NCBI GenBank assembly: GCA_951799425.1
Contig: OX637393.1
Location: forward strand, 20,687,744 to 20,751,743
Direction of reading: 5' to 3'
DNA: 64,000 nucleotides
From: Ilex aquifolium
Lineage: Eukaryota > Streptophyta > Magnoliopsida > Aquifoliales > Aquifoliaceae
Shown here one piece after another: positions 6,223-61,200 of the stretch. The notes under the pieces were generated by a model, which saw only the letters and a list, made by a program, of their open reading frames with translations, made no database searches and was not told the DNA's origin. Both the position numbers and the translations under genes were made by a program. How positions within the stretch are numbered: position 1 is the stretch's first letter; each line of letters starts with the position of its first letter.

Positions 6223-6667
6223 GATAGACAGGTGGGGAAGATGGAGGTCTCTGATAGTTTCCAAGAAGGGTGGCTATGACGTCAGGGGTCACTGTAAATA
6301 CCTTTCCCCTAACATTCACTCTCAGAACTTCCCCAACAGCAACCTCAACTAATTTCAATGAACGGTAGAACTCCCTTACCAATGCCAGGTTGTAACCCTC
6401 AACTTCCTTGAACCAGAAATGCATCCCATGCCCCTCAATGATTTTCACAACGGGATGAATGGGGGAAAGGGACATTTTATCCAAAAAACGTTCACAGGTC
6501 ACACCCTTACCATCGATCAACTGGTGTCGGGCATCCCTCTTAGCCCTCTTCCTCTGCTCCTCTGGGTCCTCACTTGACCCTTCGCCTCCTCTCTTCCGGC
6601 TAGAGGAGACCCTGGCAGGAAGGGAACTGGGCTCGGGTCCTGGTCCTGGTCTCTTAGTGCGAGCCAT
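6223..6667 (-). pseudogene. Env-position ORF of E2, C-terminus removed by E1 insertion
   Basis: The frame starts at an ATG at 6667 (protein begins MARTKR) and stays open for 148 codons until the E1 LTR boundary. The N-terminus is Pro/Ser-rich and then strongly basic (RKRGGEG and EEQRKRAKRDAR), like a bipartite nuclear localisation signal. An LVREFY block followed by a V-RG-(F/D)-V block resembles the plant 'putative plant transposon protein' domain often annotated in Athila/Tat elements; that family name is from memory. I see no signal peptide or membrane segment in the surviving part, so an envelope function is not supported. It is sense with pol (9008-13618) and downstream of it. A GTACCGGTAC cluster lies about 210 bp upstream. 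Confidence 0.6.
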
Positions 6668-6873
6668 TGAGTTTATCCGATGAGGGTTGTCCAAAGCAAG
6701 CGAAATCAAAGGAGGTTTTATGGATTGAGAGGGAAGTGGGGAGGGTTTTGGAACCTTGGAGTGTTTTCGAGTGAGGGAGAGAGGGATAGGGCAGGAATAG
6801 AAGCGGGGAAATGAAGGGTTTAACGAGGAGTTTAAATTAAAAGCCCTAAAAAAAATTTCGTGTCAGACAAATC

Positions 6874-6969
6874 GTACCGGTACTGAGTACCGGTACTTCG
6901 ACTCCAGAAGGTTTGGCGTACCGGTTCTGAGTACCGGTACCATATCGTACCGGTACTGAGTACCGGTAC
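6874..6969. repeat. Internal GTACCGGTAC palindrome cluster of E2
   Basis: Six units start at 6874, 6887, 6918, 6931, 6947 and 6960 (spacings 13, 31, 13, 16, 13); the one at 6918 has a single mismatch. A 21 bp linker beginning TTCGACTCCAGAAGG is repeated in the cluster of E2's own LTR near 16882. The cluster sits between the non-coding region and the env-position ORF, upstream of that ORF's ATG. Confidence 0.92.
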
Positions 6970-7019
6970 TGTTATGCTTTGTCTGACAAACTCCTCCTGC
7001 TGAGCATACCACCACTCCA

Positions 7020-12000: not shown

Positions 12001-13618
12001 CCATCCCTTTCAACTCTTCCACCTTTTCTTGATCATCCAATTTCTCCAATTCGACCAATTCTTCCTCCTTGAGTTTCAACATCCCTTCTAACTCCAAGTG
12101 CTCCTCAATCAACGTGTCAATTCTATTGACCTCATTTGCCTCCTCGTCATCCCCTGGTTGCCTTGCTAGATTAAAAACGTTAAGTTCCATGGTCATGTTC
12201 CCGAATGCCAATTTCATCAGACCATTCCTGCAATTTATCACTGCATTAGATGTAGCAAGGAAAGGTCGCCCAAGTATCACGGGGATTTGGGAACTAATAT
12301 TAGCAACAGGATGAGTATCTAAGACAATAAAATCAACTGAAAAATAAAACTTATCAACTTGAACCAACACATCTTCCACTACTCCCCTTGGTGTGCGGAT
12401 GCTACGATCCGCAAGTTGAAGTGTGATTGAAGTAGGTTTCAACTCCTCAAGCTTAAGTTGCTGATACACGGAGTAGGGAAGGAGATTAACACTTGCTCCC
12501 AGATCAAGCAATGCTTGTTCGACCCGGCAATTTTCGATAGTGATGGCAATTGTTGGACAACCGGGATCTTTGAACTTGGGAGGAGTGTTGGTCCTCAGAA
12601 TGGAGCTCACTTGTTCTGTCAAGAATGACTTCTTCCGGACATTTAGCCTCCGCTTTACCGTGCATAGATCTTTCAAAATTTTGGCACATGACGATATTTG
12701 CTTGATGGCATCGAGGAGCGGGATATTGATTTTTACCTGCTTAAACATGTCTAAAATATCAGAATAATTAGCCACCTTGACAGGTGACTTCAAACGATGG
12801 GGAAAGGGGGCAGGCATAGGAGGAAAACACAAGCTATCATCAATCACATGTTCATTTTCAATTTGCTCATTTTCTTTGTCTTTACTCACTTCACCTTTTT
12901 CGGCCACACGTTCCTTGGCCTCACCCTCAATGGACTCTTCTATTGGCAATTGTGCCTTGGGTGGAACCTTTGGCACTATGGTCTTATCAATTTGTTTGCC
13001 ACTACGAAGAGTGGTGACCCCCTTGAGGTGCTCACAATTCTCTTGGGTGGGCTCAACTGATTCAACCACATTTTGGCCCTTGGGATTTTGTTGTGGTTGA
13101 GAGGGGAATTTCCCCTTCTCTTGTTGAGACAAGCCTATGTGATTTGTGATCTTTGTGAGTTGAGCCAAAATGTCCTTATTGAAGGTGGTTTGGCTTTGAA
13201 TGAAGGCATGGACCACATCTTCTAGACTCCTTTTATGAGGTGGTTGGTAGCTGGGAGAACTAGATGGGCCTTGTTGGAAAAAATTATGTGGGGGAGGATT
13301 GGATTGGTACCCTTTTGGATTGGACCGTGGGTATTGGGAGTTAGAAGCTTGCCCCTGACCTTGATATTGGGATTGGTACTGACCTTGCTTGGGAGGTGCA
13401 GGAGATGTGTATGTATTTGAACCATAGGGGATGGGGTTCTCATTCCTCCAACTGAAATTAGGGTGATCACGATACCCCGAATTGTAAGTGTTGGAATTTG
13501 AAGGAAATGATTGCCTTGGTTGGTTGAAGGCATTGACTTGTTCATGGTATGCTTCTTTAAGTGCCGGAATGCTCGGACACTCCGATGTGAATGCTCGACA
13601 CCACCACAAATAGAACAA
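9008..13618 (-). CDS. Athila-type Gag(C-terminal)-Pol polyprotein of E2, 5'-truncated
   Basis: An uninterrupted 1536-codon frame. In order: second half of the Gag zinc knuckle and a Pro/Gln-rich Gag tail (1-200); aspartic protease with DLGAS (372-376); reverse transcriptase (about 640-860) with FMDD at 811-814; RNase H (about 920-1070) with D960, E1001, D1026 and D1069; integrase with an HHCC finger (H1168, H1175, C1206, C1209) and a D1238-D1297-E1333 core, exactly 35 residues between the last two; and a WDGPYF module near 1476-1481. All catalytic residues I can place are present. There is no ATG at the start: the frame opens with TTG inside gag. The first half of the knuckle (ACSICGG) lies in another frame just upstream, so a small indel near 13590 splits the finger, and the capsid part of gag is deleted up to the LTR. 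It cannot be expressed as a normal Gag-Pol but could be translationally active DNA until recently. Confidence 0.93.
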
Positions 13619-14066: not shown

Positions 14067-15910
14067 TGATTGATTGGAAATTACGTCGTTCCTAACCTCG
14101 TAACATCACCCTCACCCTCAATGTGTGTATGTGGCTTATAGTGATGGGGGAGTGTCACTCTCCCTCCGGATGATGCAAGAAGATAGGAAACAACAACAAA
14201 ATGGATGTGAATGGAAATGTGATGAACAAAATAGATGGAATGAGATGCGGTGTGCACAAAAATGCTCCCCAATCGAAAGGAGTCTTTTGTGGTCGTGTGT
14301 TTTACTTGGAAAATATTTCAAGGTCGTCTCCTCAGGGAAGGAAAGGGAGTTTTGTGAAAGTGATTTTGCAAAAGTGAAAAGAAAGTGTAAAATCTTGTAT
14401 TTGTGTTTTGGTGAGTTTTGTTCAAAATGAAAATGCAAGAAAGCAAGTGTTGGCTAATCCAAAGGGTTCATTCCAATGGGACTACCAAATCAACTCAAAG
14501 CCTTCCTCCGATTGAGCATGAATGAACGATTGATTCGGGGGACGCTAGGGACGAGATTGGTGAGTATCTAAGCATAAACCGTGACTAGGCCTACGGAATA
14601 TCAAAGGCTCACCAACTCATCCACTCTCAACCCCGTCAAACCGAACCATTTGACTCTAAAGGGAGGAATGAAGAAGAGTTGAAAATGGTATTCCCAAGAG
14701 GAATTTTCCCTTGGATTAACCAACTTAAATCCTAGCTACTCATATTAAAAATGCATAAAGGAAAGACAAGCATAATGTAAATGAAAGACATTGTATAGAA
14801 ATGAAGCTTTAAAGCATGAAACTAAACTTGAAGCAAGAAATCTAAAGCTATGAACAAAAACATTCAATACCCATTTTAAGCTAAAAATGAAGAACTTGAA
14901 AGCATAAATGGTGAAATGAAGAACATGTAATTAACTTGCAATATACTTGAAATAAAGGAGATTACAATGTAAGAAATGAAGATTACAAGAGGAATGTAGC
15001 TTACAACAATGACATGGATGAAGAAAATGCAAAAACGAAATTACTATTCATCATCTTCAACCTTGGAGCTTTCTACATCTACTCCTAAGCTTAGGTAGCC
15101 AACTTTTTACATTGTGTGTTGAATGTTGAATATATTGAGTGTGGAGACTTGCCAAAATGTCCAAGAGGCTCCCCCCTAGCTGTGTGTACGAGCTCCCATC
15201 AAGAGAGGGCTGAATGGATGGCTTTGACAGGCTAGGAGATCATAGCCTGGGCAGCCCACTTCCCCCCATTCCTCCTTTAATGCATTGGCCTTTAAAGTCT
15301 TCCACTTGAGTGTAGGAGGCCTGTAAATGTGTAAGGAAATGTTGGGATAGGCGTGGGAGAAGTGTAGGTGGGACCCCCAAGCCTCAAAGTTGAGTTACAG
15401 GCTGTTTTCACAACCAGAAGGTCCGGAGTACCGGTACCATTTGGTACCGGTACCGAGTACCGGTACTATTTTTCTGCACTGGTCGGCATAAATCTTGATC
15501 TAACCGTTGGATTGGACTGAAATTGTGACACCAAAAAGAAGACACCCATATCTACAACTTTGATGTTTTGAACTTTTCCAAATTCTGAGTAGATCATGGT
15601 CAAAATGGAGGAATTCCGAGGCAGTGCTTCCAATTGTTGCTGCAGCTGGTGCCCTTGTTCCCAAGCACCAATGCCTTCTTGATTTCTTCACTTTTAAGCC
15701 TCCAATTCTTCATGTATTGTGTCCATGCCTTCACCACACATCCAACATAGTTGCAATGTCCTAAAATACATGATTTAAGCAATAAAAACTTGCAACATCA
15801 AAATATCAACATTATTCATAATTTTGGCTAACACTAAGTATTTAAATGCAAAAGTTGAGTTATAATGCATGTAATGAGCCCTTCAAATATGCAATATTAT
15901 GCGCTCATCA
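14067..15910 (-). mobile_element. Solo Athila LTR in the E2 LTR, TSD GGTAT
   Basis: A complete 1844 bp LTR of the E1 type, inverted relative to E1, with termini TGATTGATTGG...GCGCTCATCA on the + strand. GGTAT flanks it perfectly at 14062-14066 and 15911-15915, and the interrupted E2 LTR resumes without loss. This is the expected product of recombination between the two LTRs of an inserted element. It carries three GTACCGGTAC units. Confidence 0.95.
15428..15466. repeat. GTACCGGTAC cluster in solo LTR
   Basis: Perfect units start at 15428, 15444 and 15457 (spacings 16 and 13). Confidence 0.9.
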
Positions 15911-16842
15911 GGTATACTATCTCAACTCAAATCACTCCTCCGATTGAGCATGAATGAACGGTTGATTCGCGGAAAGCCGAGGATAAGGTAGGTGAGTATC
16001 TAAGCATAAACCGTGACTAGGCCTACGGATTATCAAAGACTCACCAAATCATCCACATTCAATCCGGTCAAACCGAACCATTGGACTCTAAAGGGAGGGA
16101 GTAGAAAGAGTTGAAATGGTATACCCAAAAAGGAGGATTCCCCTTGGTCTTGCCAACAAAAGGATTTAGCTACCCATACTTGAAATGAATATGACAATGG
16201 AAATATAATGCAAAGATATAAAGTTTTGAAGTAACTAAGTGCAAGAAATAATGGACTAGAAGTGAATGAAGTGAAAATCCATTTTTTATCTATGAACAAG
16301 AACAACTTGGAAGCATTAATAGTAGAACTTAAATGGAAGCATTAAACTAGCAATGGACATAAGGAAAAATGGCATTAATGACATTCAATGAAGATCTAAA
16401 GGTTCATACCATTGATTACAAGACAATGCAGTAGCAGAAATGCAAAAATCACAACTTTCTCTCTCTAAAATTACTATTCATCATCTTCTCCGCCCAGAGC
16501 TTCTCTCACTATCTTTTTCTCTATGCTATCCCAGAATGCCCATCATTGGAGAGCTTTCCCTCCCAAAAATGTGCCTGGTCAGCTCCTGTAGCTCCCTGAA
16601 GTGACCCCCATCAGTAGGGTGCAGTCTGGATGACCTGGACAGGGGAGTGCAGAGTTTGTCTGCACACCGAGCTCCTCCTCTTCTCTCCCTCTAAAATTTA
16701 AAGTTGTAGCTCTAGAGTGCAGAGGAAAATGTGGGCCTGATGAACAGTGTTGTGGGCGTGTCAAAGGAGTGTGGGGGCATCTATGGTGGGACCCTCGAAG
16801 TAGCTGAGCAGATCTGCAGATTCTGGGCTTGTCAGGGAAATC

Positions 16843-16925
16843 GTACCGGTACTGAGTACCGGTACCATACAGTACCGGTACTTCGACTCCAGAAGGTTTG
16901 GCGTACCGGTATTGAGTACCGGTAC
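16843..16925. repeat. GTACCGGTAC cluster in E2 LTR
   Basis: Units start at 16843, 16856, 16872, 16903 (one mismatch) and 16916. The 21 bp linker before 16903 is the same as in the internal E2 cluster. Confidence 0.92.
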
Positions 16926-17173
16926 TGTTCTGCCTCCTTGTCTGAATCTTCTGATTCCTTTGCTCCTGAGTTGTCCCCAAGTTCTCTTTTCATCTCCTTT
17001 CATCCCAAGTGGTATGGGAAGGCCTTAACAAACCATATTTAGCTCCTTTCAACTGCAAACATAAAATATTGACGTTAAGACTTCAATCATCATAACTCAT
17101 ATCATTTAATCTTCAAAAACAAGTGAACTGAGCTGATTAGCACCTTAAAATATACAAAGTTTTGTGCTAATCA

Positions 17174-18223
17174 ACTTGCGCACGGGGTACCATCAGTTGA
17201 AGATATGGAAAGCCGACATTCCTAAGATGGCGTTGGGACTCGATATGGTCATTTTGAGTTCATAGTTATGCTATCGGGTTGATAAATGCCCCAACAACAT
17301 TCATGGACCTCATGTATAGGGTTTTTAAGCCATATCTTGATCAGTATGTAGTATTGTTTGTACACGACATTCTTGTATACTCCAAGGTGGAGGAGGAACA
17401 CAAACATCACTTAAGGATTATTTTACAAGCATTGAGAGATCACTAGTTGTACGCCAAATTTAGCAAGTGTGAGTCTTGGCTGAAGGAAGTCAAGGTTTTG
17501 GGCCATGTTGTGTTGGCTAAGGGTGTATTAGTTGACCCTGAAAAGGTTGATGTGGTAATGGATTGGGAGAGGCCGAAGTCAGTCTTCGAGATACGTAGTT
17601 TCTTAGGATTGGTAGGGTACTATCGAAGATTCATCAAGGATTTCTCCTGATTAGTGACACTATGATGAGACTTATGAGAAAGGAAGTCCAATTTTCAGTG
17701 GGATGACTCATATGAGAGGCCATTCCAAGAGTTGAAAAGGATGTTGAATTCAACTCCTATTCTGATCGTGTCGGAGAGGAGACAGAGATGCACAGTCTAC
17801 TATGATGCCTATAAGGATGGACTAGGTTGTGTTTTGATGCCATCCGGAAGGGTGGTAGCTTATGGTTCTTGATAGCTTAAGAACAACGAGAAAAACCATC
17901 GTACGCACAACATGGAGTTGGCAGTCATTATTATTGCCTTGAAAACATGGCACCACTATTTATACGAAGAACAGTTTGAGGTGTTTTCAGACCACAAGAG
18001 TCTGACATACATCTTCACACCACGGGACCTCAACATGAGGCACCGTAGGTGGATGGAGTACCTGGAGGATTACGACTTAATTTTGCATTACCATCCTGGT
18101 AAGACAAATGTGGTAGCTGATACACTCAACTGGAAGTCACAGAGAGTCTTGGCTAGTATAGCTTCCCAGGAGTGGCAGATGCTCAAGATTGTGGGACATT
18201 TCGGGCTACATTACAGGGATTAG
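17174..18223 (+). pseudogene. Chromovirus (Tekay/Del-type) RT-RNase H relic
   Basis: Broken frames read as the palm and thumb of a Ty3/gypsy reverse transcriptase followed by RNase H. Recognisable blocks are [71 protein letters not shown] and GKTNVVADTL. The FxDD catalytic motif reads FVHD: the first Asp is His. Several frameshifts and stops are present (for example around 17240-17280, after [13 protein letters not shown], and near 17875). The left end abuts the E2 LTR, the right end is the target site of the solo LTR at 18224, and integrase continues at 20034. Inactive. Confidence 0.85.
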
Positions 18224-22170: not shown

Positions 22171-24103
22171 TGATTGATGAAAAACGTTGTTATTCCTAAC
22201 CCCTAAACATCACTATTTGACATGTGTATATGGCTTATGTGTGAAAGGGAGTGTCACTTTCCCTCGGGGTGATGCAAGAGATTAGGCAACAACGAATTGG
22301 TGGAAAATGAAATGAACAAAATGTATGAAATGAAATGCGGGTGTGTGGTGTGAACAAAAGTGCTCCCCAATCGCAAAGAGTCTTTTGCTTGTCGTGTTTT
22401 ACTTGGAAAAGTATTCCAAGGTCGTCTCCTCAGGGAAGGAAAGTTCAAGTGTGTGAAGGTGATTTTGGTGAACAAAAGAGAAGTGTAAAATCTTTTGTTT
22501 GTGTTTTGTGAGTGAAGTTTTTGAATGAAAATGCAATGAAAACAAATGTTGGCTAATCCAAAGTGGTCATTCCAATGGGAATCCCATCTCAACTCCAAAC
22601 ATTCCTCCAATGGTGCTTAAATGAACGATTGATTCGTGGGAAGCTAGGGACAAGATGGAGGTGAGGGTTCAAGCATACACCGTGACAATGCCTACGGTGT
22701 ATCAAGAACTCACAACCAAATGGAGGTGAGGATCCAAACATAACCCGTGACCAGGCCTACGGGATATCAAGGACTCACAACCACGTCCACTCTCAACCCA
22801 GTCAAACCGAACCATCGTACACCAAGTGGAGGAAAAAAGAAGAGTTGAAATGGAACACCCAAGAGGAAATCTCCCTTGGATTAACCAACTTAAAATCTAA
22901 CTACTCATGAAAGCAAGAAAGAAATGCATAATGTAAAGAGACATAATTGAAATGGAGCATGAAACTTAAATTAATGCAAGAAATCTTAAACTAAGAAGAA
23001 AAATATTCAATACCCATTTTAAACTTAAAATGAAGAAAGCTTGAAAGCATTAATGGTGAAATCTAAAATGCAAGACTAAACTTGAAATATACTTGAAATA
23101 AAGGAGATTACAATGCAAGAAATAAAGATTACAAGAAGATTAAAGCTTACAGGAACGAAAATGGAAAAGAAAATGCAAGAACATAAGCTTTCTACTATTC
23201 ATCATCTTCTTCACTAAAACTAAGCTTAGGTAGCCACCCCTCAAGAACTTGTGTAATGCTGAATATATGGTGTGTAGCCTCTGCATTTTCGTCCATAGGG
23301 TCCTCTAGCATGAGTGAGCAAGCCTCCCATCAATAGGGGCTGAATGGATGGGTATGGCAGGCTAGCACAGGCTTAGCCTGCACTCCCCAGGCTTCACCCC
23401 TTCTCTCTCCTCTCATTCAATGTCAAGCCTCCAAAGTCTTTAACTATGGTGTAGGAGGCATGATTGTAGGGATAAAATGTCGGGCTAGGTGTGGGAGAAC
23501 CAATGGTGGGACCCCCAAGCACGTGGAGAAGAGTTTGCAGGTGTTCTGGGCTGTTCTGGGAGCGTACCGGTACTGTGTACCGGTACTCTAAACCTTCTGG
23601 AGTTCGAAGTACCGGTACGCAGTACCGGTACTGTGTACCGGTACTGTTTTCTGCTCCGGACCAGTCTTCGTATAATTGGCATAACTTTTGATCTAACCGT
23701 CAGATTGAGTTGAAATTTTGACACAATATAGACGACATCCAGATCTACAACTTTCATGTTTTAAAATTTTTCATATTCGAAGTGGATCATGGTCAAAATG
23801 GAGGAAAACCGAGACTCTTCAACCCAGTGGTGTGGCTGCTGGCGCTTTTGTTCCCAAACACCAATACCTCCTTGATTTCTTCACTTTTAAGCCTCCAAAT
23901 CTTCATGTAATGTGTACATACCCTCACCACACATCCATCATAGTTGCAAGGTCCTAAAATACATGATTTAAGCTATAAAAACATGCAACCTCGAGAATTC
24001 AACATTATTCATAAAATCGGCTAACTCTAAGTACTTAGATGCAAAAGTTGAGTTAAAATGCATGTAATGAGGCCTTGAAATATACAATATTTTGTTCTCA
24101 TCA
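22171..24103 (-). mobile_element. Solo Athila LTR in E3 5' LTR, TSD ACCTA
   Basis: A 1933 bp LTR, termini TGATTGATG...TTCTCATCA on the + strand, with ACCTA at 22166-22170 and 24104-24108. The host LTR resumes exactly after it. Within it, five GTACCGGTAC units at 23564-23644. Confidence 0.95.
23564..23644. repeat. GTACCGGTAC cluster in solo LTR
   Basis: Perfect units start at 23564, 23577, 23609, 23622 and 23635 (spacings 13, 32, 13, 13). Confidence 0.92.
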
Positions 24104-30242: not shown

Positions 30243-32121
30243 TGATGAGCGCATAATATTGCATATTTAATGGCCTCATTACATGTATTTTAACTTAACT
30301 TTGCATTTAATTACTTTGAGTTAACCGAAATTACGAATAATGTGGAATTTTGGATGTTGCAGGTAATTATAGCGTAAATCATGTATTTTGGAACCTTGCA
30401 ACTAAGTATGGAGGAGTGGTGAAGATGTGGACACATTACATGAGGATTTGGAGGCTTAAAAGTGAAAGAAATCAGGGAGGTATCGATGCTTGGTAACATA
30501 GGCACCAACACCCGCACCATGTGGTAGCAGTACCTCGGTATTTCTCCTTTTTGACCATGATTCACTTCAAATATGAAAAAGTGAAAAACATGAAAGTTGT
30601 AGATCTGGATGGTCTCTGTATTTTTTCAAAATTTCATCTCTATCGGATGGTTGGATCAAAAGTTATGACAATTCTACAAAAACTGGTCCAGAACAGGCAA
30701 CCTACCGGAAAGACCTACCGGAAGTGTTTTTACTCCAGTAGCCAAAACCTACTGGTAGAATGATGAAAACCTACTGGTAGGTTTTGCCCAGAATGCCCAA
30801 AACACCTGCAACTCATGCTCCACTTGCTTGGGGGTCCCACCATTGATTCTCTCACTTGTCCCCTGACATCCCTTACACATCTACATGCATCCCAACACCC
30901 ATTAATGGACTTTGGAGGCAATAGCATTAATGAGGATGGGAGAGAAGGGGGCTGCCATGATGGGTGCGGGCTATGCTCTTCCTAGCCTGTCAAAAACCAA
31001 TCAACTCACCTCCTATTGATGGGAGGCATACACACAGGCTAGGGGAGCCTCATAGACGAAAATGCTTTATCTATTCTCCATATATTCAGCATTCACAAGC
31101 CATTGAAGGGTGGCTACCTAAGCTTAGGAGTAGTTTAGAGAGCTCCAAGGAAGAAGATGATGAATAGTGCTAGGGAGATAAAATTTATGTTTTTGCATTT
31201 TCTTCACCCATTTCATTGCAGTAAGCTGTAGTTCTCTTGTAATCTTTATTACTTGCGTTGTAATCTCTTTTAATTCTAGTGTAATCAAGTTTAATTCAAA
31301 TGTTCTTGCACTTTTATTTTTCTACTGGGTTTTTCTTTTAAGCTTTAGTTATGTTTATGAAATGAATTCTTCTTTGTAGTCTAATTCCTTTTAGCATCAA
31401 TACAAGTTTTAAATTCCATTTCAATACCATGTCTCTTTTCATATGCATCTTTTTCCTACTTTCATGAGTAGCTAGATTTTAATTTGGTTAATCCAATAGA
31501 GACCTCCTCTTAGGTATGCCATTTAAACTCATTTTCTTTCCTCCTCTCGGTGTACGATGGTTCGATTTGACTAGGTTGATAGTGGATGTGGTTGTGAGTC
31601 TTTGGTATCCCGTAGGCCTGGTCACGGGTTATGCTTGGATCTTCACCTCCATCTCGTCCCTAGCTTCCCACGAATCAATCGTTCATCTAAGCACCATTGG
31701 AGGAAGGTTTTGAGTTGAGTTGGGATTCCCATTGGAATGACCTCTTTTGATTAGCCAACACTTGTTTTCATTACATTTTTTAGCAAAAACTCCAATCACC
31801 AAAACACAAACAAAAGATTTTACACTTTTCTCAGTTTTTACAAAATCACCTTCACACAATTCCCTTCCTTCCCTGAGGAGACGACATTGGAATACTTTTC
31901 CAAGTAAAACACAACACACGAAAGTCTCTCTGTGCTTGGGGAGCACTTTTGTTCACACACACACATTTTGTACATTTCATTTCATCCACCATTCCATTGC
32001 CCTTTCTTTTGACATCATTCCGAGGGAGAGTGACACTCCCCTTCACACGTAAGCCATACACACACATTTGAGGGTGATGTCCGGAGCTTAGGAAATATAC
32101 TACAACGGAAACAATCAAGCA
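30243..32121 (+). mobile_element. Solo Athila LTR just before the E3 PPT, TSD GACTA
   Basis: A complete 1879 bp LTR, TGATGAGCGC...ATCAAGCA, flanked by GACTA at 30238-30242 and 32122-32126. After it the internal region resumes with GCAAAGC and the PPT. Its palindromes are of the CTACCGGTAG type, although the rest of the LTR resembles neighbours that carry other types. Confidence 0.95.
30701..30780. repeat. CTACCGGTAG-type cluster in solo LTR
   Basis: Half-preserved units at 30701 and 30714 (CCTACCGGAA), and CTACTGGTAG at 30749-30758 and 30771-30780 (22 bp apart). Confidence 0.85.
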
Positions 32122-48307: not shown

Positions 48308-48651
48308 CGTTCGAACGCCAACTCACGTTCGAACGTCCACATTACACTATAGCAGACTCAACTGCTAAGAGAAGGCGTGTTGCAGTAAGGAAAGAAGACT
48401 GAAGCTCTGAAGCACTTGAGTGTCACGTTCGAACGTGCACTTGAGTTGATTGAAGACCAGACTACTGCATAGAGGTGGAACTGAACTTCACAGAAGACCA
48501 ACAGACCACTCGAGTGAAAGGGTCAGAACACATCTGGCGTTCGAACGCCCTTAGTGCAAAAATAGAAGACACGTTCGAACGGCAACCAACGTTTGAACGC
48601 CCTTAGTACAAAAACAGAAACAACGTTCGAACGCCAACTCACGTTCGAACG
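48308..48651. repeat. CGTTCGAACG cluster, E4 LTR
   Basis: Units start at 48308/48326, 48426, 48538, 48572/48590 (second with one mismatch) and 48624/48642. All three clear pairs have 18 bp spacing. Confidence 0.93.
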
Positions 48652-48744: not shown

Positions 48745-48754
48745 CTATAAATAC
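48745..48754 (+). promoter_or_regulatory. E4 LTR TATA box
   Basis: CTATAAATAC, 94 bp after the last palindrome. E5 keeps the same TATA in both LTRs (about 52922 and, as TATGAATAC, 60564, minus strand). Confidence 0.65.
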
Positions 48755-51634: not shown

Positions 51635-53575
51635 TGATGCTTGTTCCGAAATGTGTACACCCAAGTGCAGGCGGTCAAGCTGTAGTAATAATCCGGTTTG
51701 AGTCCGGAGTCGAATCCACAGGGAACTTTTGTTGATATTTCTGAGGTGAGCAGTGGTAGAGACCTATTGATTGTAACCTTTGAGATTTGCTGTGAGATAT
51801 GAGTTTTTCTGGCCAGAATATAAGATTCTTTCCAGGAAGATTTTCTTAACAAAATAGGTGCTAATAAAAAAAAGTCACTCTTTAGTGCAAGGATCTGGAC
51901 ATGTAGCTAGTTATCCGGTTTGTCATAATTGTGCTTGATAACTCAATTAACTCCCGTTTCAACAGCAAGTTAATCGGAAGATAAAGATGGATTATGAGAA
52001 TTAAGAACATGATTCTGATGTCTTTCTAGAAGTTTACAAGAATTGCCTGTGCCGAGACTTAACCCGTCTACAAACAAGCAAGTGTTTCTACAAGACATCC
52101 AATCATGATATTAATATTCCATTCTTTAAATGAAGTACAATAAGGAGGAAGATTGAGGGGTAGTCATGAGGATCTAGCCGGGGTACTTGCCTTGAACTGA
52201 TGAGTCTTTCTATGCAAGAGTCATCCGTGTCATAGAAAGAACCCACAATTATACAAAGTACCCTAGCTTTGCTAGATGCAATCAATCATCCAATAACAAG
52301 AAGAAATAAGCGTTAAGCATAGAAACATTGCACAAATATGATTCCCGGATAACTTATACATGCTCTTCTCCTCTTACTAAAGAGTGAATGAGAAACTACT
52401 GACTCTTCATGGCTTAGGTAAAGCTAGAAAAGTGAGTGATGCTCATCCCTCCAAGTAGAGAGCTTATAAGATAAAGTAACAACAAATGCGTAGCCAATCT
52501 TTAACAAAGAATGGGTGAATCACATTCCACCCTTCACGGCTTTGGTAAAGCTCTAGAAAAGTGTAAGAGTTTCACTCTTCTAAGAAAGAAAGAAGCGCAA
52601 GCAATGGAAGTGAAATGTATGAACAATAAAAGTAGAAGAAAGCTAGTCACATTTGGAGGGTGGCTTCCTCAACCAAGAATTGGAGGGTTGCTTCCTCAAC
52701 CAAAAGGTGAGCTATCTCTCTTCTATGCATGAAAAATGAAAGCATAAACATAAAACTACTGTTATAACAAGCAAGAGATGTTGGACTAAAGCCAAACTAA
52801 TCTCTAAAATAAAGACTTCATACAAAGGAAATGAGCTAAATCTACATTGAGAGTGGGAGTCTAAGCCTCCATCAACTTTCCTACTTCCTACTTGGCTCTC
52901 ATAACTCTCCAACAAGGGGAGTATTTATAGGCAAGAGGAGGAGACAAGGGGGGGGGGGGTGAAGGAATAGTGTTTGCCACCCAAGTCCAAGTGAACAGTC
53001 AACAACTCTGCTGCCAGTCTGTGAATAACGTTCGAACGTGAGTTGGCGTTCGAACGTTCTTTCTGTTTTTGCACTAAGGGCGTTCGAACGTTTACTGTCG
53101 TTCGAACGTTTCTTCTGTTTTTGCACTGAGGGCGTTCGAACGCCAGATTTGCTTTGACCCTATCACTCGAGTAGTCTGGTGGTCTTCTGTGAGGGTCAGT
53201 TCCAACTCTTTGCAGTGGTCTGGTCTTCCATCAACTCAAGTGTACGTTCGAACGTGAGTTGGCGTTCGAACGTGACACTCAAGTGCTTCAGAGCTCCAGT
53301 CTTCTTTCCTAACTGCAACACGCCTTCTCTTCAGCAGTTGAGTCTGCTACAGTGCAATGTGGACGTTCGAACGTGATTTGGCGTTCGAACGTTCTGGCTG
53401 TGCTCCAAGCTTTTCCAATTTTGGCCCTAATGTGCTGGTGCTGCATCCAAGTGTGGTACTTGTTGTTCTTGGGTCCTTGTTCAATTTAGGGCCTGAAATG
53501 ACATCACTTAAACTCCATTAAAGTACAATTAGTCTTAAAATGTCATAATAACATGTCAATTTTAAGTACTAATCA
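51635..53575 (-). repeat. E5 3' LTR (1941 bp)
   Basis: Minus strand TGATTAGTACTT...AAGCATCA. Very similar to the other E5 LTR, but with one more palindrome unit. It contains a run of eleven G at about 52950-52960. Confidence 0.93.
53029..53391. repeat. CGTTCGAACG cluster, E5 3' LTR
   Basis: Nine perfect units at 53029/53047, 53081/53099, 53133, 53245/53263 and 53364/53382; all four pairs have 18 bp spacing. Confidence 0.95.
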
Positions 53576-55387
53576 CACTCACCAACCTAAATATTGCTAG
53601 TCTCTAATAATACGAAAAAGAAAAATCTACTCCTAATGCCATTTTCGTAGGTCATCCGGTTGCATTTAGCTTATGCAACAAGCCGTTGAACCACTAGGTT
53701 TACCCTAGCGGACGAGTGTTGTCTCGTGAGGGTTTCCAGGGAAGCTACCCACAAACTTCAGTCGAACAGATGTGCATAGGAGAGTGCTGACTAAAGTAAA
53801 TTAGCTTCATGGTCGTTGAGACACCAAATTCTCAATTTTGACTTATGTCTCACACGTCCTTATTTCACAGGTATTCATTCTATGCAAAAATTATCATTTG
53901 TTACATTGGTATTTGAAATTCTCAATGCAGTAGGAATGATCATTCAAGCAACCGAAATTGTTGTGTAACAAATACTCCCTTTTATCACCTTCCATGGATA
54001 GTTTCGATTTCACAAACCTCACATAGTATACCCTCAGCAAAAGTTCACTCTGATTATAGTGACTTGTTTCTCACAGATCATGTGATCAGAAGATGGTCAA
54101 TCGAAAAATCACATGCACAATTTAGGAAAGGAGTGAAATTTTTAAGAAGCAACTACTTATGTTTGGCATAACCTCATGAAAGAATATTAACGTAATTAAA
54201 AGGAATGCTATTTACCATATCCCAATTGTGATTATCAACACATGCATGTAACAGACTTGAGATCAAATAGGGCTTTTCATAGGTTGTAGCGTGGCCAGAG
54301 GTCTGTGGCTAACAAAACGACGTCAGGGATTTTCAAAAGCTATCTTCTGTTTACGTATTGTAGCACACCTTTTTCTAACTTCTTGATATTTTGCCAAGAG
54401 ATGACATTTCTTTCATTTTTCTCATTTTTCACTTTCTTAGCAAGCTCTTGCCTTTTTGCTTCTTGTTTTGTTTCAATTGTTCCAATCAACTCTTCTTGGA
54501 TGATAATCTCGAATGCTTCTTTTTCTTTTTATGTATCATCTTATAAAGAGGATGTAAGAAAATTAGATAGCCAAGGTATGTCAAGTATGTTTTCCTGTGG
54601 ATTGGTAATCATATAGGTTTATCAAAGAAAAATTTATACATTGATGGCTCAAACATGGCTAACGAGGGATAAATTTTGTCAAAGAAAGGTCTAAGGCTCA
54701 ATATTATATCAAAGATGGCCTAAGATCATTTCTCAAGCATGTGCACATGTATGTGTCGTATGCGATGGTTCCTTGTGGGATATGTCAATAGATCACTTTT
54801 AAGTGCGTCAATCAAAGCAAGGTTAATGAGATCATTCAAAAATTGAGAGTGAACATAATTTACTTGAGTAAACATTGATTGTCTCTCAAAAGCATCGTTA
54901 GGTTTGAAACTCACCCTGGTGTTCTTTGTTATCTCCACTATGTATGTCGGGTTTTCTAGGGGGTATTGGTTATATACCAATTCCATTTTCGAGTCAGATC
55001 CTCTTGTACCTTTAAAATTAAAAATATCGATGTACATATGACAATTTAAGTATAGAGAGAATACCAATTTTTTTCAAGAAATGTGGTTTTAAGTCTCGGT
55101 TGATAAATGGAGGTGTCAAACTGATCATGTGCAAATTTACTCTAGCGAACATTCTTAATATCCACATTTGTTCCATCACCTTTTAATTTTTATGCTAAAT
55201 CTACAAATGCATTAAAACAAATAAAAGTGATAAATGGAACCATTCATTTCAAAATATCATCTTTTAATATCAACGGTTCGATTCATTCACAATTGCACAA
55301 AAACTTACAACTATCAAAGAAGAAATTCATAAAAAGAAGCACTTTAAACAAACATAAAAACAAGAACAAGAACATAAATCCTCTCTC
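53576..55387 (-). other. Non-coding region of E5 between env-position ORF and 3' LTR
   Basis: No credible ORF. Blocks such as GATGGCCTAAGATCAT and GGCTCAA correspond in reverse to the 1.7 kb non-coding region of E1-E3. Next to the LTR the PPT has decayed to AGGTTGGTGAGTG. ORF-like stretches at 54305-54616 and 54726-55067 are not recognisable. Confidence 0.6.
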
Positions 55388-56164
55388 TCACTCTCCTCCT
55401 TGTGCACCATCTCCTCCATGTCCACCATGTCCACCCCTCAAAAGCCTAAGGATCTCATCCTGCTTAGCTTCAATGCTAAGCATGACGTCCAATAAGGAGC
55501 GTCGGGTGCTGGTGCTAGTGCTGGTGCTGGTGCTAGGTCCCGCCTCTGCTGGCTGATCTCCCTCTCTCTCCATCTCTCTCTCCATCTCATCAAGCTCCTC
55601 TTGTACCTCATCCACTCCGCGGGCCGGGGGCTCTTCTTGCCTAAAAAATCTCCTCCCTGCCCATGAAAAGTCAGCTACCCCCGTCAATTCCTTTCCCACC
55701 ACATTCATTGCTATGTCCTTCTTTGGGGGGTAGGTAGGGTTTTGCACTCGAGGTATTTCCTCTCTTATTTCAATGATGTATGTTTCATCCACGTCAATGT
55801 GGGTACCCCTAACATATGTCCGGATTGCGCCGTTGATGATCTCAGCGTTGGAGTAAAACTCCCGCACCAAGTCAACAACGGCGTCTCCACGATTCCTCAA
55901 ATACCAGACCCACTCCCTCCTTTCCATCTCTGCAAAGATCCCCAACTCCGCAAAATCAGCCAAAATCACATCTCTTTCACAAACAATGGCTTTGTTTTGG
56001 TAGAAATTTTCAAACCTGTCTGCTTTTAGAGCTGTGAGAAACCGAGTCTTGTCGTATCTCCTTGTGAGTGCTGGCATTCCTTCTCTCACCTCCACCACTT
56101 CTTCGACAAAATTTGGCTCTTGGGTGTTTGGGTTCTTCCTGGCAGGAAGTTTGACTCTTGGCAT
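55388..56164 (-). CDS. Env-position ORF of E5, intact
   Basis: A 258-residue protein from ATG 56164 (begins MPRVKLPARK); the frame is open further upstream, but only from a TTG and across the TATA box and a palindrome, so I prefer this ATG. It has a basic start, a central domain with VVDLVREFYSNAE and YVRGTHIDVDE, matching LVREFY and RG-V-V of the E2 ORF, then an acidic EELDEMEREMERE helix (likely coiled coil), a Ser-Thr repeat, and a Gly/His-rich C-terminus. The central part resembles the plant 'putative plant transposon protein' domain. No signal peptide or membrane span is visible, so Env activity is unlikely. It is intact although gag of the same element has frameshifts and a stop. A dedicated upstream promoter is suggested by the TATA box at 56371-56382. 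Confidence 0.7.
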   Translation of the reverse strand: MPRVKLPARKNPNTQEPNFVEEVVEVREGMPALTRRYDKTRFLTALKADRFENFYQNKAIVCERDVILADFAELGIFAEMERREWVWYLRNRGDAVVDLVREFYSNAEIINGAIRTYVRGTHIDVDETYIIEIREEIPRVQNPTYPPKKDIAMNVVGKELTGVADFSWAGRRFFRQEEPPARGVDEVQEELDEMEREMEREGDQPAEAGPSTSTSTSTSTRRSLLDVMLSIEAKQDEILRLLRGGHGGHGGDGAQGGE

Positions 56165-56370
56165 TTTTTCGGTTTTTGAGTTGGAGGGTTTTGAAATCTT
56201 TGATTTCTTTGTGAAAATGGATCTTCTTGAAGTGGCAAATGTCTTGGGAGGGTTGATTTTTGGTGAAGATGGAGAATGGTTGGGGTTTTGGGATCTGGGT
56301 AGTGAAGAGTCTCCAAGGTTTTTCGGGTTTTCAGAAGTTTTGGAGGGTTTTGAAATGAAGAAGACGAGCC

Positions 56371-56382
56371 GGGCTTTTATAG
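56371..56382 (-). promoter_or_regulatory. Internal TATA box upstream of env-position ORF
   Basis: The minus strand reads CTATAAAAGCCC, a strong plant TATA match. It lies about 210 bp upstream of the ORF start and 13 bp downstream of the nearest TTCGAA palindrome. The same order occurs in the LTR of E4. Confidence 0.65.
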
Positions 56383-56394
56383 CCTGAGTCGTAA

Positions 56395-56693
56395 CATTCG
56401 AACGTTTGTGATGTTCGAACGTGGATAGAAGGATTTTAAACAGACCGTTCGAACGTGGTATGGCGTTCAAACGTGGTGAGCTCCCAGTACTTTTGTGTTC
56501 TTTCAGAGGCCAAAGTACTATAAGTTCTCTTCGTTCGAACGTTCTTTTGGCGTTCGAACGTTAATCTCGTTTGAACGGTCTATTGGCGTTCGAACGGACT
56601 GAGCTCCCAGTACTTTTAAGTTCCAGAAGAAGCTTCATCAGAGGCTGAGTACTGTAAGCAGTCAACGTTCGAACGTTACCTAACGTTCGAACG
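56395..56693. repeat. Internal TTCGAA palindrome cluster of E5
   Basis: Ten units, several with one mismatch, in five pairs: 56395/56412 (17 bp), 56446/56464 (18), 56532/56551 (19), 56568/56587 (19) and 56666/56684 (18). Same palindrome type as in the LTRs of E5, but the intervening sequence differs, so it is not an LTR fragment. Confidence 0.93.
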
Positions 56694-56962
56694 TTGAACC
56701 AAAATTAAAGTTTTTCTCTACTACACTATATACAATCAAAGAAAACAAAACACACAAATTTAAATCAAGAAAAACTAAGGCGTCTCAGGATGAACCCCTA
56801 CCCACGCTTCAGGTTGGTATTTTGGGGCATTCCTTACTCGGCCCATATTTTCATTTCAGTCAAAAGAATTTATACAAAATGATTTTTACACTTTTTACAA
56901 CAAATTCGGACCTTTGGCATTCACTCCCCCAACAAAAGTACAAATTTCCTACAGAAAATTAT

Positions 56963-57373
56963 CTAATCCGAGTCTCCCTCTGTGTCTGTGTAAAATGGAC
57001 AACCAGTAACTCTCCCAACTTCCTCCCTCACAAATCGGTTAAGCACAGTACCGGAATAGCATGGCGTATCAGGGTAATCATTACTCAGCCCATTCACTAT
57101 CCAGTCTAATCGATCAAGTGCGCGACCGAAAATTGGTTCAAAACACTGGTTGTACCTTTTTTCGTGAAAGAATCTGCCACACTGTTTACAGGCACCAAGC
57201 CTTTTTGCACAACGGCGTTTGGCAAAGCTGCTTCTGCCACAGAGGGGTTTCGCTTGTTTTTCTTTGATTTCAGTCTTCCTTACTAATCTTGTTTTTCTCA
57301 TGATCATAATATGTACATCAGATGGAAAAGTACGTAGAACTCCTAGGCTAAACCAAAAAAGATTTACATCCAT
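56963..57373 (-). CDS. Small Cys-rich basic ORF of E5, unknown function
   Basis: A 136-residue frame from a real ATG, sense with gag. Met22 and Met25 (MIMRKTRLV) are alternative starts. The middle is strongly basic, with RRCAKRLGACKQCGRFFHE followed by KRYNQC, giving a C-X2-C pair, a His and a further Cys that could bind zinc. The C-terminus is acidic (DTEGDSD). I do not recognise the family. It lies between the decayed gag and the palindrome/promoter module, where autonomous relatives carry pol; no counterpart is seen in E2. Zinc binding and DNA binding are guesses from composition. It could be a captured host exon or chance. Confidence 0.45.
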   Translation of the reverse strand: MDVNLFWFSLGVLRTFPSDVHIMIMRKTRLVRKTEIKEKQAKPLCGRSSFAKRRCAKRLGACKQCGRFFHEKRYNQCFEPIFGRALDRLDWIVNGLSNDYPDTPCYSGTVLNRFVREEVGRVTGCPFYTDTEGDSD

Positions 57374-57558
57374 GATTGCTAAATTTTAAGACTCACCATC
57401 TGGTTCTTTAACGTCTGCCAGTCACAAAGACGATTGAAGCTGATTCATAAGCATAATCATCAATTTATACAATCAATTTTCAAACATGATTAACAGCGAC
57501 AATAAAAATTTAAAAATTTACGAAAATTATGAACGAAAAAAAACTGATGAACTGATCA

Positions 57559-57571
57559 TACCCCCCAACCT
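57559..57571 (-). other. Internal PPT-like site of E5
   Basis: Minus strand TAGGTTGGGGGGTA with ACAATGTTCAGTT upstream, matching site 2 of E1 (ACAATGCATAGTT, then AAGTTGGGGGGTG). It is 113 bp after the end of gag. Confidence 0.6.
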
Positions 57572-57683
57572 AAACTGAACATTGTCCCCAATGTTTCGAA
57601 TTTACCGGTTCATGGAGTGTGGAGACGAGGTTGAATGGTAGAGATCTGTTCACCGCTGAAACCTACAAACAAAAACACAAAAA

Positions 57684-59161
57684 TTACTCATCTGTGCGCA
57701 AATCTGGGTTTCGGGTGTTTCCTGTTGTTGAAGGGTTCCCTACATGGAATTGGCCTTGTGGTTGCTTTGGTTGAGCAGGAAACTTTCCCTTTTCGTGTGT
57801 GACCATGGATTGAGTCAACGTTTGGATGTGGCTTTTAAGATCCTCAAAAGATTGAGTGGTCTGGGTTTTGAAATCAGTGAAAGCCTGTGTGGAATTATTG
57901 TTATAATTCATTTGGCTTTGCATGAACTGATTCAGTGTGTCCTCAAGGTTCCTCTTTTGTGGTGGTTGGTATGGTTGATATGCAGGAGGTCCTTGAGGTG
58001 GTGGGTATGGTCCTTGTTGTTGGTTCATGGGTATTGGTTGTGTGTTCTTCCAACTTTCGCCACCCTGTATTGTATGTTTCAGAATATGGGTTGGAGTAGG
58101 GCTTGTTGAAGTTGGAAACTGCATCTGTTTGTTCCAACAAGACTTCTTTGAATGCTGGGATGGTGGGACACTCCCCAGTAGGGTGTCCTGTTAGCGCACA
58201 AATTCCACACATTTGCTCGGTGGAAGGGCTAACATCAACTTGATGGACTTTCTTCATCTCTAAAGCTTCAAGCTTTCGAGATAGTGTGGACATTTTTGCT
58301 CTCTAGTCATCATCCTCTCTCAAGACATATTTTTCTCCTTGGGAATTAGATGGTCTGGCTTCTACAGTGGTAGGGGAGGCTGAGTCCCACATCTGAGAAC
58401 TGTCAGATATGGTGTCGAAAAAATTGAATGCCACCTCCGGACTTTTTCCCATGAATTCTCCTTGGGCCATCATTTCGACAAACTGACGTAGTCTAGAGGG
58501 TAAGGAGTCATAGAAAAATCCTACCAAAGTCCAATTTTCAAAAGCATGATGTGGGCAGGATTGGTGCAGATCTTTGAATCTCTCCCAACTTTGATAAAAA
58601 GTTTCTCCTTCTTTGACCGCAAAATTCATGATTTGCCTTTTTAGTGCATTTGTGCGGTGTAAAGGAAAAAACTTTCTAAAAAATTCATTTTGTAATGCTT
58701 GCCAATTGGGTATTGACAAAGCCTTTAAAGAATTTAACCATTGTTTGGCTCTATCCCTCAAGGAAAAAGAAAACAGTTTCATTTTGGCCAATTCAGAATT
58801 GTCTTGGAATGTTACACACTTCCTCAAAATCTTTTATATGCAGATATGGATTTTCTGCATCCAATCCATGAAACACGGGTAATAATTGCACTGTCCCCGG
58901 CTTTACAGTAAAGAGGGGAGCATTTTCAGGAAAAATAAAACAAGAGGGGACACTATTTCTTGTGGGATTTAAGTAATCCCGCAAAGTTCGGATGTTAGGG
59001 ACCTCCTCCTCTCTCATAGGGACTTCTCCATTTCTTTCATTATTTGTCATACTACCCTCACAAGAGTCTGCTACTGATCTAGGTGAATTAGATTCAGGCT
59101 GATTCACGGACTCACACGATTCTGCCGGCAAATTTTGGAAGTAAGGAGTGCCCTCAGTCAT
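57684..59161 (-). pseudogene. Gag of E5, broken
   Basis: Closely similar to E4 Gag along its whole length, from ATG 59161 (MTEGTPYFQN) through the capsid-like domain, the zinc knuckle CGICALTGHPTGEC and the Pro/Gln-rich tail. A frameshift lies near 58815, an in-frame TAG near 58303-58305 (DDDL in E4) and a second frameshift near 58050. It ends in a short C-terminus not shared with E4, then runs into non-coding sequence; pol is absent. It cannot make a full Gag, so E5 would depend on proteins from relatives. Confidence 0.88.
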
Positions 59162-59255
59162 AAAGAAAATAAAACAAAGTTATTTCTAGTAAACCAAAAT
59201 ATACACAATGTTGAAGGTCTTTTTACCTTTCACCTTAAAAGACCTTTCAAAGGTT

Positions 59256-59272
59256 CCCCGGCAAAGGCGCCA
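59256..59272 (-). other. E5 primer-binding site, tRNA-Asp
   Basis: Minus strand TGGCGCCTTTGCCGGGG, one mismatch to the tRNA-Asp complement, six bases from the LTR end. Confidence 0.88.
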
Positions 59273-59278
59273 AAAACT

Positions 59279-61200
59279 TGGTGCTTGATCCGAAATGTGT
59301 ACACCCAAGTGCAGGCGGTCAAGCTGTAGTAATAATTCGGTTTGAGTCCGGAGTCGAATCCACAGGGAACTTTTGTTGATATTTCTGAGGTGAGCAGTGG
59401 TAGAGACCTATTGATTGTAACCTTTGAGATTTGCTTTGGATATGAGTTTTTCTGGACAGAATATAAGATTCTTTCCAGGAAGATTTTCTTAACAAAATAG
59501 GTGCTAATAAAAAAAAGTCACTCTTTAGTGCAAGGATCTGGACATGTAGCTAGTTATTTGGTTTGTCATAATTGTGCTTGATAACTCAATTAACTCCCGT
59601 GTCAACAACAAGTTAATCAGAAGATAAAGATGGATTGTGAGAATTAAGAACATAATTCCGATGTATTTCTAGAAGTTTACAAGAATTGTCTGTGCCGAGA
59701 CTTAACCCGTCTACAAACAAGCAAGTGTTTCTACAAGACATCCAATCATGATATTAATATTCCATTCTTTAAATGAAGTACAATAAGGAGGAAGATTGAG
59801 GGGTAGTCATGAGGATCTAGCCGGGGTACTTGCCTTGAACTGATGAGTCTTTCTATGCAAGAGTCATCCGTGTCATAGAAAGAACCCACAATTATACAAA
59901 GTACCCTAGCTTTGCTAGATGCAATCAATCATCCAATAACAAGAAGAAATAAGCGTTAAGCATAGAAACATTGCACAAATATGATTCCCGGATAACTTAT
60001 ACATGCCCTTCTCCTCTTACTAAAGAGTGAATGAGAAACTACTGACTCTTCATGGCTTGGGTAAAGCTAGAAAAGTGAGTGATGCTCATCCCTCCAAGTA
60101 GAGAACTTATAAGATAAAGTAACAACAAATACGTAGCCAATCTTTAACAAAGAATGGGTGAATCACATTCCACCCTTCACGGCTTTGGTAAAGCTCTAGA
60201 AAAGTGGAAGAGTTTCACTCTTCTAAGAAAGAAAGAAGCGCAAACAATGGAAGTGAAATGTATGAACAATAAAAGTAGAAGAAAGCTAGTCACATTTGGA
60301 GGGTGGCTTCCTCAACCAAGAATTGGAGGGTTGCTTCCTCAACCAAAATGTGAGCTATCTCTCTTCTATGCATGAAAAATGAAAGCATAAACATAAAACT
60401 ATTGTTATAACAAGCAAGAGATGTTGGACTAAAACCAAACTAATCTCTAAAATAAAGACTTCATACAAGGGAAATGAGCTAAATCTACAATGAGAGTGGG
60501 AGTCTAAGCCTCCATCAACTTTCCTACTTCCTACTTGGCTCTCGTAACTCTCCAACAAGGGGAGTATTCATAGGCAAGAGGAGGAGACAAGGGGGGGGGG
60601 GGTGAAGGAATAGTGTTTGCCGCCCAAGTCCAAGTGAACAGTCAACAACTCTGCTGCCAGTATGTGAATAACGTTCGAACGTGAGTTGGCGTTCGAACGT
60701 TCTTTCTGTTTTTGCACTAAGGGCGTTCGAACGTTTCTTTTGTTTTTGCACTGAGGGCGTTCGAACGCCAGATTTGCTTTGACCCTATCACTCGAGTAGT
60801 CTGGTGGTCTTCTGTGAGGTTCAGTTCCAACTCTTTGCAGTGGTCTGGTCTTCCATCAACTCAAGTGTACGTTCGAACGTGAGTTGGCGTTCGAACGTGA
60901 CACTCAAGTGCTTCAGAGCTCCAGTCTTCTTTCCTAACTGCAACACGCCTTCTCTTCAGCAGTTGAGTCTGCTATAGTGCAATGTGGATGTTCGAACGTG
61001 ATTTGGCGTTCGAACGTTCTGGCTGTGCTCCAAGCTTTTCCAATTTTGGCCCTAATGTGCTGGTGCTGCATCCAAGTGTGGTACTTGTTGTTCTTGGGTC
61101 CTTGTTCAATTTAGGGCCTGAAATGACATCACTTAAACTCCATTAAAGTACAATTAGTCTTAAAATGTCATAATAACATGTCAATTTTAAGTACTAATCA
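59279..61200 (-). repeat. E5 5' LTR (1922 bp)
   Basis: Minus strand TGATTAGTACTT...AAGCACCA. Differs from the 3' LTR by scattered substitutions and a missing palindrome unit. A run of G at 60591-60602 parallels the one in the 3' LTR. Confidence 0.93.
60672..61016. repeat. CGTTCGAACG cluster, E5 5' LTR
   Basis: Eight units at 60672/60690, 60724, 60758, 60870/60888 and 60989/61007 (the unit at 60989 has one mismatch); all three pairs have 18 bp spacing. Confidence 0.95.

Follow-up and report, generated by a model that had tools for sequence, protein, structure and literature searches.

A stretch at 56371-56693 (minus strand) of the window, by which we mean the whole 64,000-nt piece of Ilex aquifolium DNA analysed here, is probably an internal promoter of the Athila-like retrotransposon E5; a family-specific factor would bind the palindromes found both there and in the LTR, and the PF20167 gene behind them would form a separate transcription unit. 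The anatomy of the element, its recurrence in other copies, the matching of LTR and internal motifs in five classes of motif and the partial constraint on the ORF were observed directly. We infer the transcription start (near 56350), the protein binding and the common factor from the sequence. In the mechanism we propose, the stretch would serve as an RNA polymerase II promoter, one factor would bind the CG-centred palindrome pairs of both the internal array and the LTR promoter, and the PF20167 gene would yield a short transcript of its own, made at the same time as the genomic RNA or earlier. With a family-specific factor, a lineage that changes its palindrome would shift the LTR and the internal array together. 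Such a factor could be encoded by the element, with the PF20167 protein as the obvious candidate, or could be a set of host proteins.

Structure of E5 and its palindrome arrays

E5 (51635-61200, minus strand) is a pol-less LTR element with gag and an env-position ORF, as found by tblastn of gag, pol and the ORF. It is inserted in E4, a related plus-strand element whose gag and pol it separates, and its flanks show that a 5-bp target (CCAAG) was duplicated. Comparison of the LTR pair places the 5' LTR at 59279-61200 and the 3' LTR at 51635-53576 (both minus strand) with 97.3% identity. The gag region (57687-59161, minus strand) consists of three tblastn pieces in different frames, with PF03732 in the ORF at 58303-58827. 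A related pol ORF elsewhere in the window (9008-13618), to which the E4 pol is 63.7% identical over the part read, encodes protease (359-453), RT (706-861), RNase H (952-1053) and integrase (1155-1326). Because RT precedes integrase, this is the Ty3/gypsy order and not that of the Ty1/copia Sireviruses, and the pol domain order does not place these elements in the Sirevirus genus. Both this order and the sense env-position ORF before the 3' LTR agree with Athila-like Ty3/gypsy elements. We call them Athila-like because their gag and primer site have what we take to be an Athila appearance and because the ORF carries PF20167. The same domain has been reported in a sunflower Athila ORF (PMC11728184). 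A search of a plasmid collection gave no match, as expected for plant DNA.

The core TTCGAA occurs 54 times in the window, compared with a mean of 14.13 and a largest count of 23 in 100 dinucleotide shuffles. When the palindrome CGTTCGAACG is searched with at most one mismatch, all 39 sites in the window fall either in the internal array or in LTRs of the family, namely that of E4, both of E5 and a related one at 18-20 kb. In the 5' LTR array of E5 (60672-61016, minus strand), whose pairs are 18 bp apart, 7 of the 8 sites are exact and one carries a single mismatch; the 3' LTR array (53029-53391, minus strand) has 9 exact sites, and the E4 LTR array (48308-48651, plus strand) again has 7 exact sites and one with a single mismatch. 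The LTR pairs of CGTTCGAACG at 18 bp are accompanied by further gaps of 34. In E4 the palindromes are followed by CTATAAATA near 48745, so the LTR order described in the original prediction is correct. The TATA box of the E5 5' LTR (about 60573, minus strand) reads TATGAATA, and the 3' LTR version reads TATAAATA.

The internal array (56395-56693, minus strand) contains 10 sites with at most one mismatch, arranged as five pairs 17-19 bp apart (18, 19, 19, 18 and 17). Five TTCGAA pairs had been predicted; the pairs are there, but only 8 of the 10 sites have the exact core, three pairs being exact in both members and two having one degenerate member. The CpG observed/expected ratio of the array is 1.72. 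It is followed on the minus strand by the TATA box CTATAAAAGCCC (56371-56382), which E4 matches at 11 of 11 bases, and by the ATG of the env-position ORF (56164-56162, the ORF extending to 55388). Reading of the sequence confirmed array, TATA box and ATG where they had been placed. With a start site set from the TATA position, the predicted leader (56165-56352, minus strand) would be about 188 nt long; it is free of ATG, as are a third of shuffles. E4 shows the same promoter layout with 84% identity to that of E5.

The genome (800 Mb in 103 contigs) was searched for further copies; from 2017 first-look candidates 40 were scored (E5 included), with 80 matches, and 20 copies were read besides E5. 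The TATA core CTATAAAAGCC is kept in all 20, and all ten palindrome positions, allowing two mismatches, are found in 19, two copies being shifted by 1 bp. In 18 of the 20 copies the longest reading frame begins at the corresponding ATG, and 9 have frames of 343-372 aa. The internal TATA core of E5 is that of the other copies. In 10-kb stretches upstream of eight other copies (L029-L036), four have pol before the array (L031, L034, L035 and L036), three have gag without pol (L030, L032 and L033) and one (L029) has neither. An LTR at L029:1559-3482 lies about 1 kb before the array, with no gag or pol detected in between.

Matching of LTR and internal palindromes in related elements

All 1024 ten-base palindromes were scanned blind over the window and seven further stretches (L038-L044). 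Apart from AT/TA repeats, every cluster of at least three exact copies in these sequences is CG-centred. The LTR motif agrees with the internal motif in all seven elements in which both could be read (E5, E4, H, C, T1, T2 and g2), elements that come from one genome and all lie near E5-type copies. The same palindrome ranks top in the blind scan of both parts in five of the seven (E5, E4, H, T2 and, by its 3' LTR, C). An LTR pair was seen for E5, C, T2 and g2; the E4 LTR is known by its similarity to that of E5, and the H and T1 LTRs were assigned from position and end sequence, with no partner LTR. A further element, g3 (14067-15910 with 16188-17270), also matches but is not counted, since it could not be clearly delimited; nor is G, whose LTR was not found. 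In the four gag and pol control stretches no palindrome exceeded one exact copy (two-letter palindromes left out).

The matches in H, T1 and C were forecast ahead, and two came out clear and one weak. The H LTR carries CGTCCGGACG at L039:4904-5017 in pairs 23 bp apart, and after the end of pol in L042 there is an internal array of 8 copies, 5 exact and 3 with a single mismatch, also in pairs 23 bp apart. This array is followed by ATTATAAATAC and then by an ATG, an E5-like layout with another palindrome. The internal region of T1 has CTTCCGGAAG at L038:2390 (exact) and L038:2420 (one mismatch), where it ranks third among palindromes, and the 3' LTR (L044:2096-2317) has four sites with at most one mismatch, one exact. 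The internal array of C consists of CTACCGGTAG at L040:3844-3950; its 3' LTR has four such sites with at most one mismatch, two exact, and its 5' LTR has two one-mismatch sites, none exact, and a different top palindrome. The C forecast counts as weak because the 3' sites had been listed earlier, before they were recognised as LTR. T2, seen before the hypothesis was formed, has CTTCCGGAAG at 4 sites in the LTR (3 exact) and 10 inside (8 exact). The internal array of g2 (2320-2386, no strand assigned) has four exact copies of GTACCGGTAC, and its LTR (4365-6222) has one exact site, at 4825. The internal array of G (6870-6970, minus strand) carries GTACCGGTAC at 6 sites, 5 exact and one with a single mismatch, and lies upstream of a PF20167 env-position ORF (6185-6667, minus strand, ATG at 6667) that is interrupted near 6222 by the g2 insertion. 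An env-position ORF behind the array was looked for in T2 and g2 and not detected, and no canonical TATA box was seen by eye in the C, T and G arrays.

Sirevirus motifs have a CGG-CCG core signature; the central bases here are TTCGAA in family A (E5 and E4) and CCGG in H, C, T and G. Pairs in the LTR are spaced like those of the internal array in A (18), H (23) and T (21-23). This matching of palindromes in related elements suggests one dedicated regulator of both LTR and internal promoter. The regulator shared with the LTR, as originally predicted, is thus favored by elements that carry other palindromes and still match LTR to array, and is weakened by the likeness of LTR and array beyond the palindromes in C, T1 and T2. 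Homologous LTRs at 30243-32058 and 22718-24103 (about 76% identical) have CTACCGGTAG-like palindromes and GTACCGGTAC, respectively, at similar places.

The likeness outside the palindromes was measured by alignment of LTR and internal array after masking palindromes of up to two mismatches, with 60 shuffles for comparison. The score is above all 60 shuffles in C (39 vs 12.0), T2 (18.5 vs 12.5) and T1 (24, on the reverse strand, vs 14.5), borderline in H (12.5 vs 12.0), and no better than shuffles in E5 (9.0), E4 (11.0) and g2 (9.0). The E5 score (shuffle mean 9.5, maximum 12.0) upholds the earlier statements that the sequence between the palindromes is unlike the LTR and that the array is not an LTR remnant; an LTR-remnant origin of the E5 array is unsupported. 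The palindromes are indeed common to LTR and internal region, but they are not the sole common feature, as pair spacing and an oriented ACTGG also recur. It could be argued that a piece of LTR U3 was once moved before the env-position ORF (or the reverse) and that lineages keep exchanging it, in which case no common regulator would be needed. We consider such copying unlikely as the whole explanation, and a live rival because the LTR and array of C, T1 and T2 are alike outside the palindromes. In C the gap series 43, 32 occurs in both LTR and array, and in T1 a pair spacer is common to both as reverse complement. The excess in C, T1 and T2 is an upper bound because masking is incomplete there: T and C palindromes are longer than ten bases, so that their outer bases stay unmasked, as do strongly decayed copies, and this may inflate their scores. 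The palindromes match anyway in E5, E4 and g2 without such likeness and in the borderline H, and decay outside but not inside the palindromes would itself require selection. Copying may therefore contribute in some families, while the matches in unrelated surroundings are unexplained by it and would be explained by selection through a common factor. C and T2 have spacer letters in common and different palindromes, which indicates that half-sites changed jointly over several sites.

In conservation the palindromes do not clearly stand out from the sequence around them. Divergence in a set of 21 close copies, which are too alike for a test of constraint, is 0.023 in palindromes and 0.019 outside. 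Between the E5 and E4 internal arrays the identity is 0.91 in palindromes and 0.82 in surroundings (Fisher p 0.06), and three LTR comparisons gave 0.80 vs 0.65 (p 0.007), 0.75 vs 0.70 (not significant) and 0.85 vs 0.89. One of these four E5 comparisons is thus significant for palindromes, two lean the same way and one is opposite.

A second alternative, possible though on the unlikely side, is that the palindromes work through host transcription factors, which would differ between families, or through an unmethylated CpG-island state. Consistent with this, CpG observed/expected is 0.79-1.72 in the seven array stretches measured, compared with 0.25-0.58 for the remaining parts of the elements for which it was determined. 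The contrast between the A and H arrays (1.24-1.72) and gag, leader plus ORF, downstream sequence and pol of E5/H (0.31-0.58) also counts for the internal promoter. CpG islands have been described at Sirevirus motifs, for which different nuclear factors were suggested (PMC2829016). An oriented ACTGG is also common to families with different palindromes, with 15 forward and 4 reverse occurrences near the palindromes of seven internal arrays and 11 forward and 2 reverse in LTR parts (E5, E4, H, T1, T2, C and g2); it may mark a host factor common to all families. As a matter of plausibility, the presence of five half-site classes among related elements of a single genome would fit a factor coevolving with the element better than host factors.

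Expression and coding capacity of the env-position ORF

It is quite improbable, in our estimate, that the ORF is expressed through spliced LTR transcripts while the array serves recombination, chromatin or RNA structure. Splicing has been reported for barley Bagy2, and the same review describes env-like genes as transcribed from the 5' LTR promoter (PMC7264820), which speaks against the internal promoter of the original prediction; acceptors have also been predicted for Athila elements (cited in PMC2829016), and E5 has an acceptor-like T-rich site near 57663, 1.5 kb 5' of the ATG. We rate splicing as the less likely route, given the 22 ATGs that separate this site from the ORF and the TATA box and ATG-free leader directly before the ORF. 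The predicted internal promoter is favored by this anatomy, by the retention of its TATA core (20/20) and ten palindromes (19/20) in other copies, and by the promoter of the ENV ORF described in Arabidopsis Athila6A (PMC4977677).

The env-position ORF of E5 (55388-56164, minus strand) encodes 258 aa with a partial PF20167 domain, the match covering only profile positions 1-57 of 177. It scores 32.3 bits (E 1.2e-7), and the G ORF scores 31.6 bits (E 1.9e-7), both under the 45-bit cut-off. The frame is open, but calling it intact was wrong because 114 residues (175-288) of copy L012 (368 aa) are missing and the ORF is not full length. The pN/pS ratio of 0.30 in its own frame, vs 0.87 and 1.26 in the other frames, shows partial, frame-specific constraint on the ORF. 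In the family ORF, silent divergence is about 0.18-0.21 at codons 90-269 vs 0.02-0.08 elsewhere in the same copies, a mosaic block whose deeper divergence suggests recombination. An argument for promoter constraint from this high silent divergence was dropped because the divergence is confined to the one block. Between gag and the array, E5 has a small ORF (56966-57385, minus strand; 140 codons stop to stop) encoding a basic stretch and a CxxC motif; of the 17 copies with the CxxC motif (E5 counted), 10 keep it open for at least 140 codons, and frame-specific constraint was looked for in this Cys-rich ORF and none was found.

The role of env-like genes in plant retrotransposons is a long-standing question. 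If a family-specific operator is common to the LTR and the internal promoter, the gene that the internal promoter would serve becomes a candidate for the regulator, and one binding assay per family could test it. We tentatively put forward, as a rather speculative extension, that the PF20167 protein, instead of being an envelope, is a sequence-specific regulator that the element itself encodes: as a dimer on CG-centred palindromes it would activate or unsilence both the LTR and the internal promoter from which it is made, a feed-forward loop, and with diversified half-sites each family would free only itself from host silencing. Pfam annotates PF20167 as a putative plant transposon protein. 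A PDB sequence search with a relative (P0006) gave no match up to E 1, and the AlphaFold model of this relative (mean pLDDT 57.7, pTM 0.30) is too poor to read a DNA-binding fold. PF20167 resembles the plant mobile domain by eye, but the Pfam hits of the 56 proteins scanned include no such family.

Relation to known systems

The placing of palindromes in the LTR and before ENV is already known from Sireviruses, and an ENV promoter in Athila from Athila6A. In Sireviruses (Ty1/copia), element-specific palindromes are repeated many times ahead of the LTR TATA box and recur before ENV, in CpG-rich sequence, and 9 of the 13 elements in Table 3 of that study have ENV with motifs before it (Bousios et al., 2010, PMC2829016). 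The motifs were said there to support an internal ENV promoter, none being identified (PMC2829016). Our elements are alike in that the same element-specific palindrome stands in the LTR and before the env-position ORF (7/7 elements, with no such ORF detected behind the array in T2 and g2); they differ in having the Ty3/gypsy pol order and CG-centred 10-mers in spaced pairs, in the identification of a TATA box and leader, and in that related families of one genome are compared. What appears to be new is that Athila-like Ty3/gypsy elements have this design, together with a TATA box, a leader and matched spacing, that it occurs with five classes of motif within a single genome, and that it allowed forecasts of which two of three came out clear. 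No printed Athila case of LTR-matched palindromes was found among the top-listed papers of an open-licence library that covers few subscription journals. The same design in Sirevirus and Athila-like superfamilies would indicate convergence or exchange of a regulatory module.

Athila6A of Arabidopsis has an internal promoter for its ENV ORF (Panda et al., 2016, PMC4977677); the accessible part of that paper mentions neither palindromes nor an LTR match for it, and we liken it to E5 by description, not by sequence. Foamy viruses have a second promoter for an accessory gene, and their Tas protein acts on both the internal promoter and the LTR (PMC3185757). They are unrelated, and there the factor is the accessory gene product whereas here it is only a candidate. 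In the VANC/VANDAL anti-silencing system, short family-specific motifs are repeated in non-coding parts and diverge between families (PMC12844716); those are DNA transposons with reported binding and demethylation, in contrast to the present elements, which are known from sequence. In the 3' internal region of maize Grande lies an accessory gene, gene23, that has a promoter to itself (Gomez-Orte et al., 2013, cited in PMC7264820 and PMC11963269). Gene23 is an antisense gene, unlike the ORF described here, and a palindrome match is unmentioned for it in the accessible text of the two citing papers. In Arabidopsis, pol-less Athila elements with gag and env keep both genes under purifying selection, and recombinant elements occur (Marco and Marin, 2008, PMC2410132). 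Neither "promoter" nor "palindrom" appears in the main text of that paper; E5 resembles those non-autonomous elements in being pol-less with gag and env kept.
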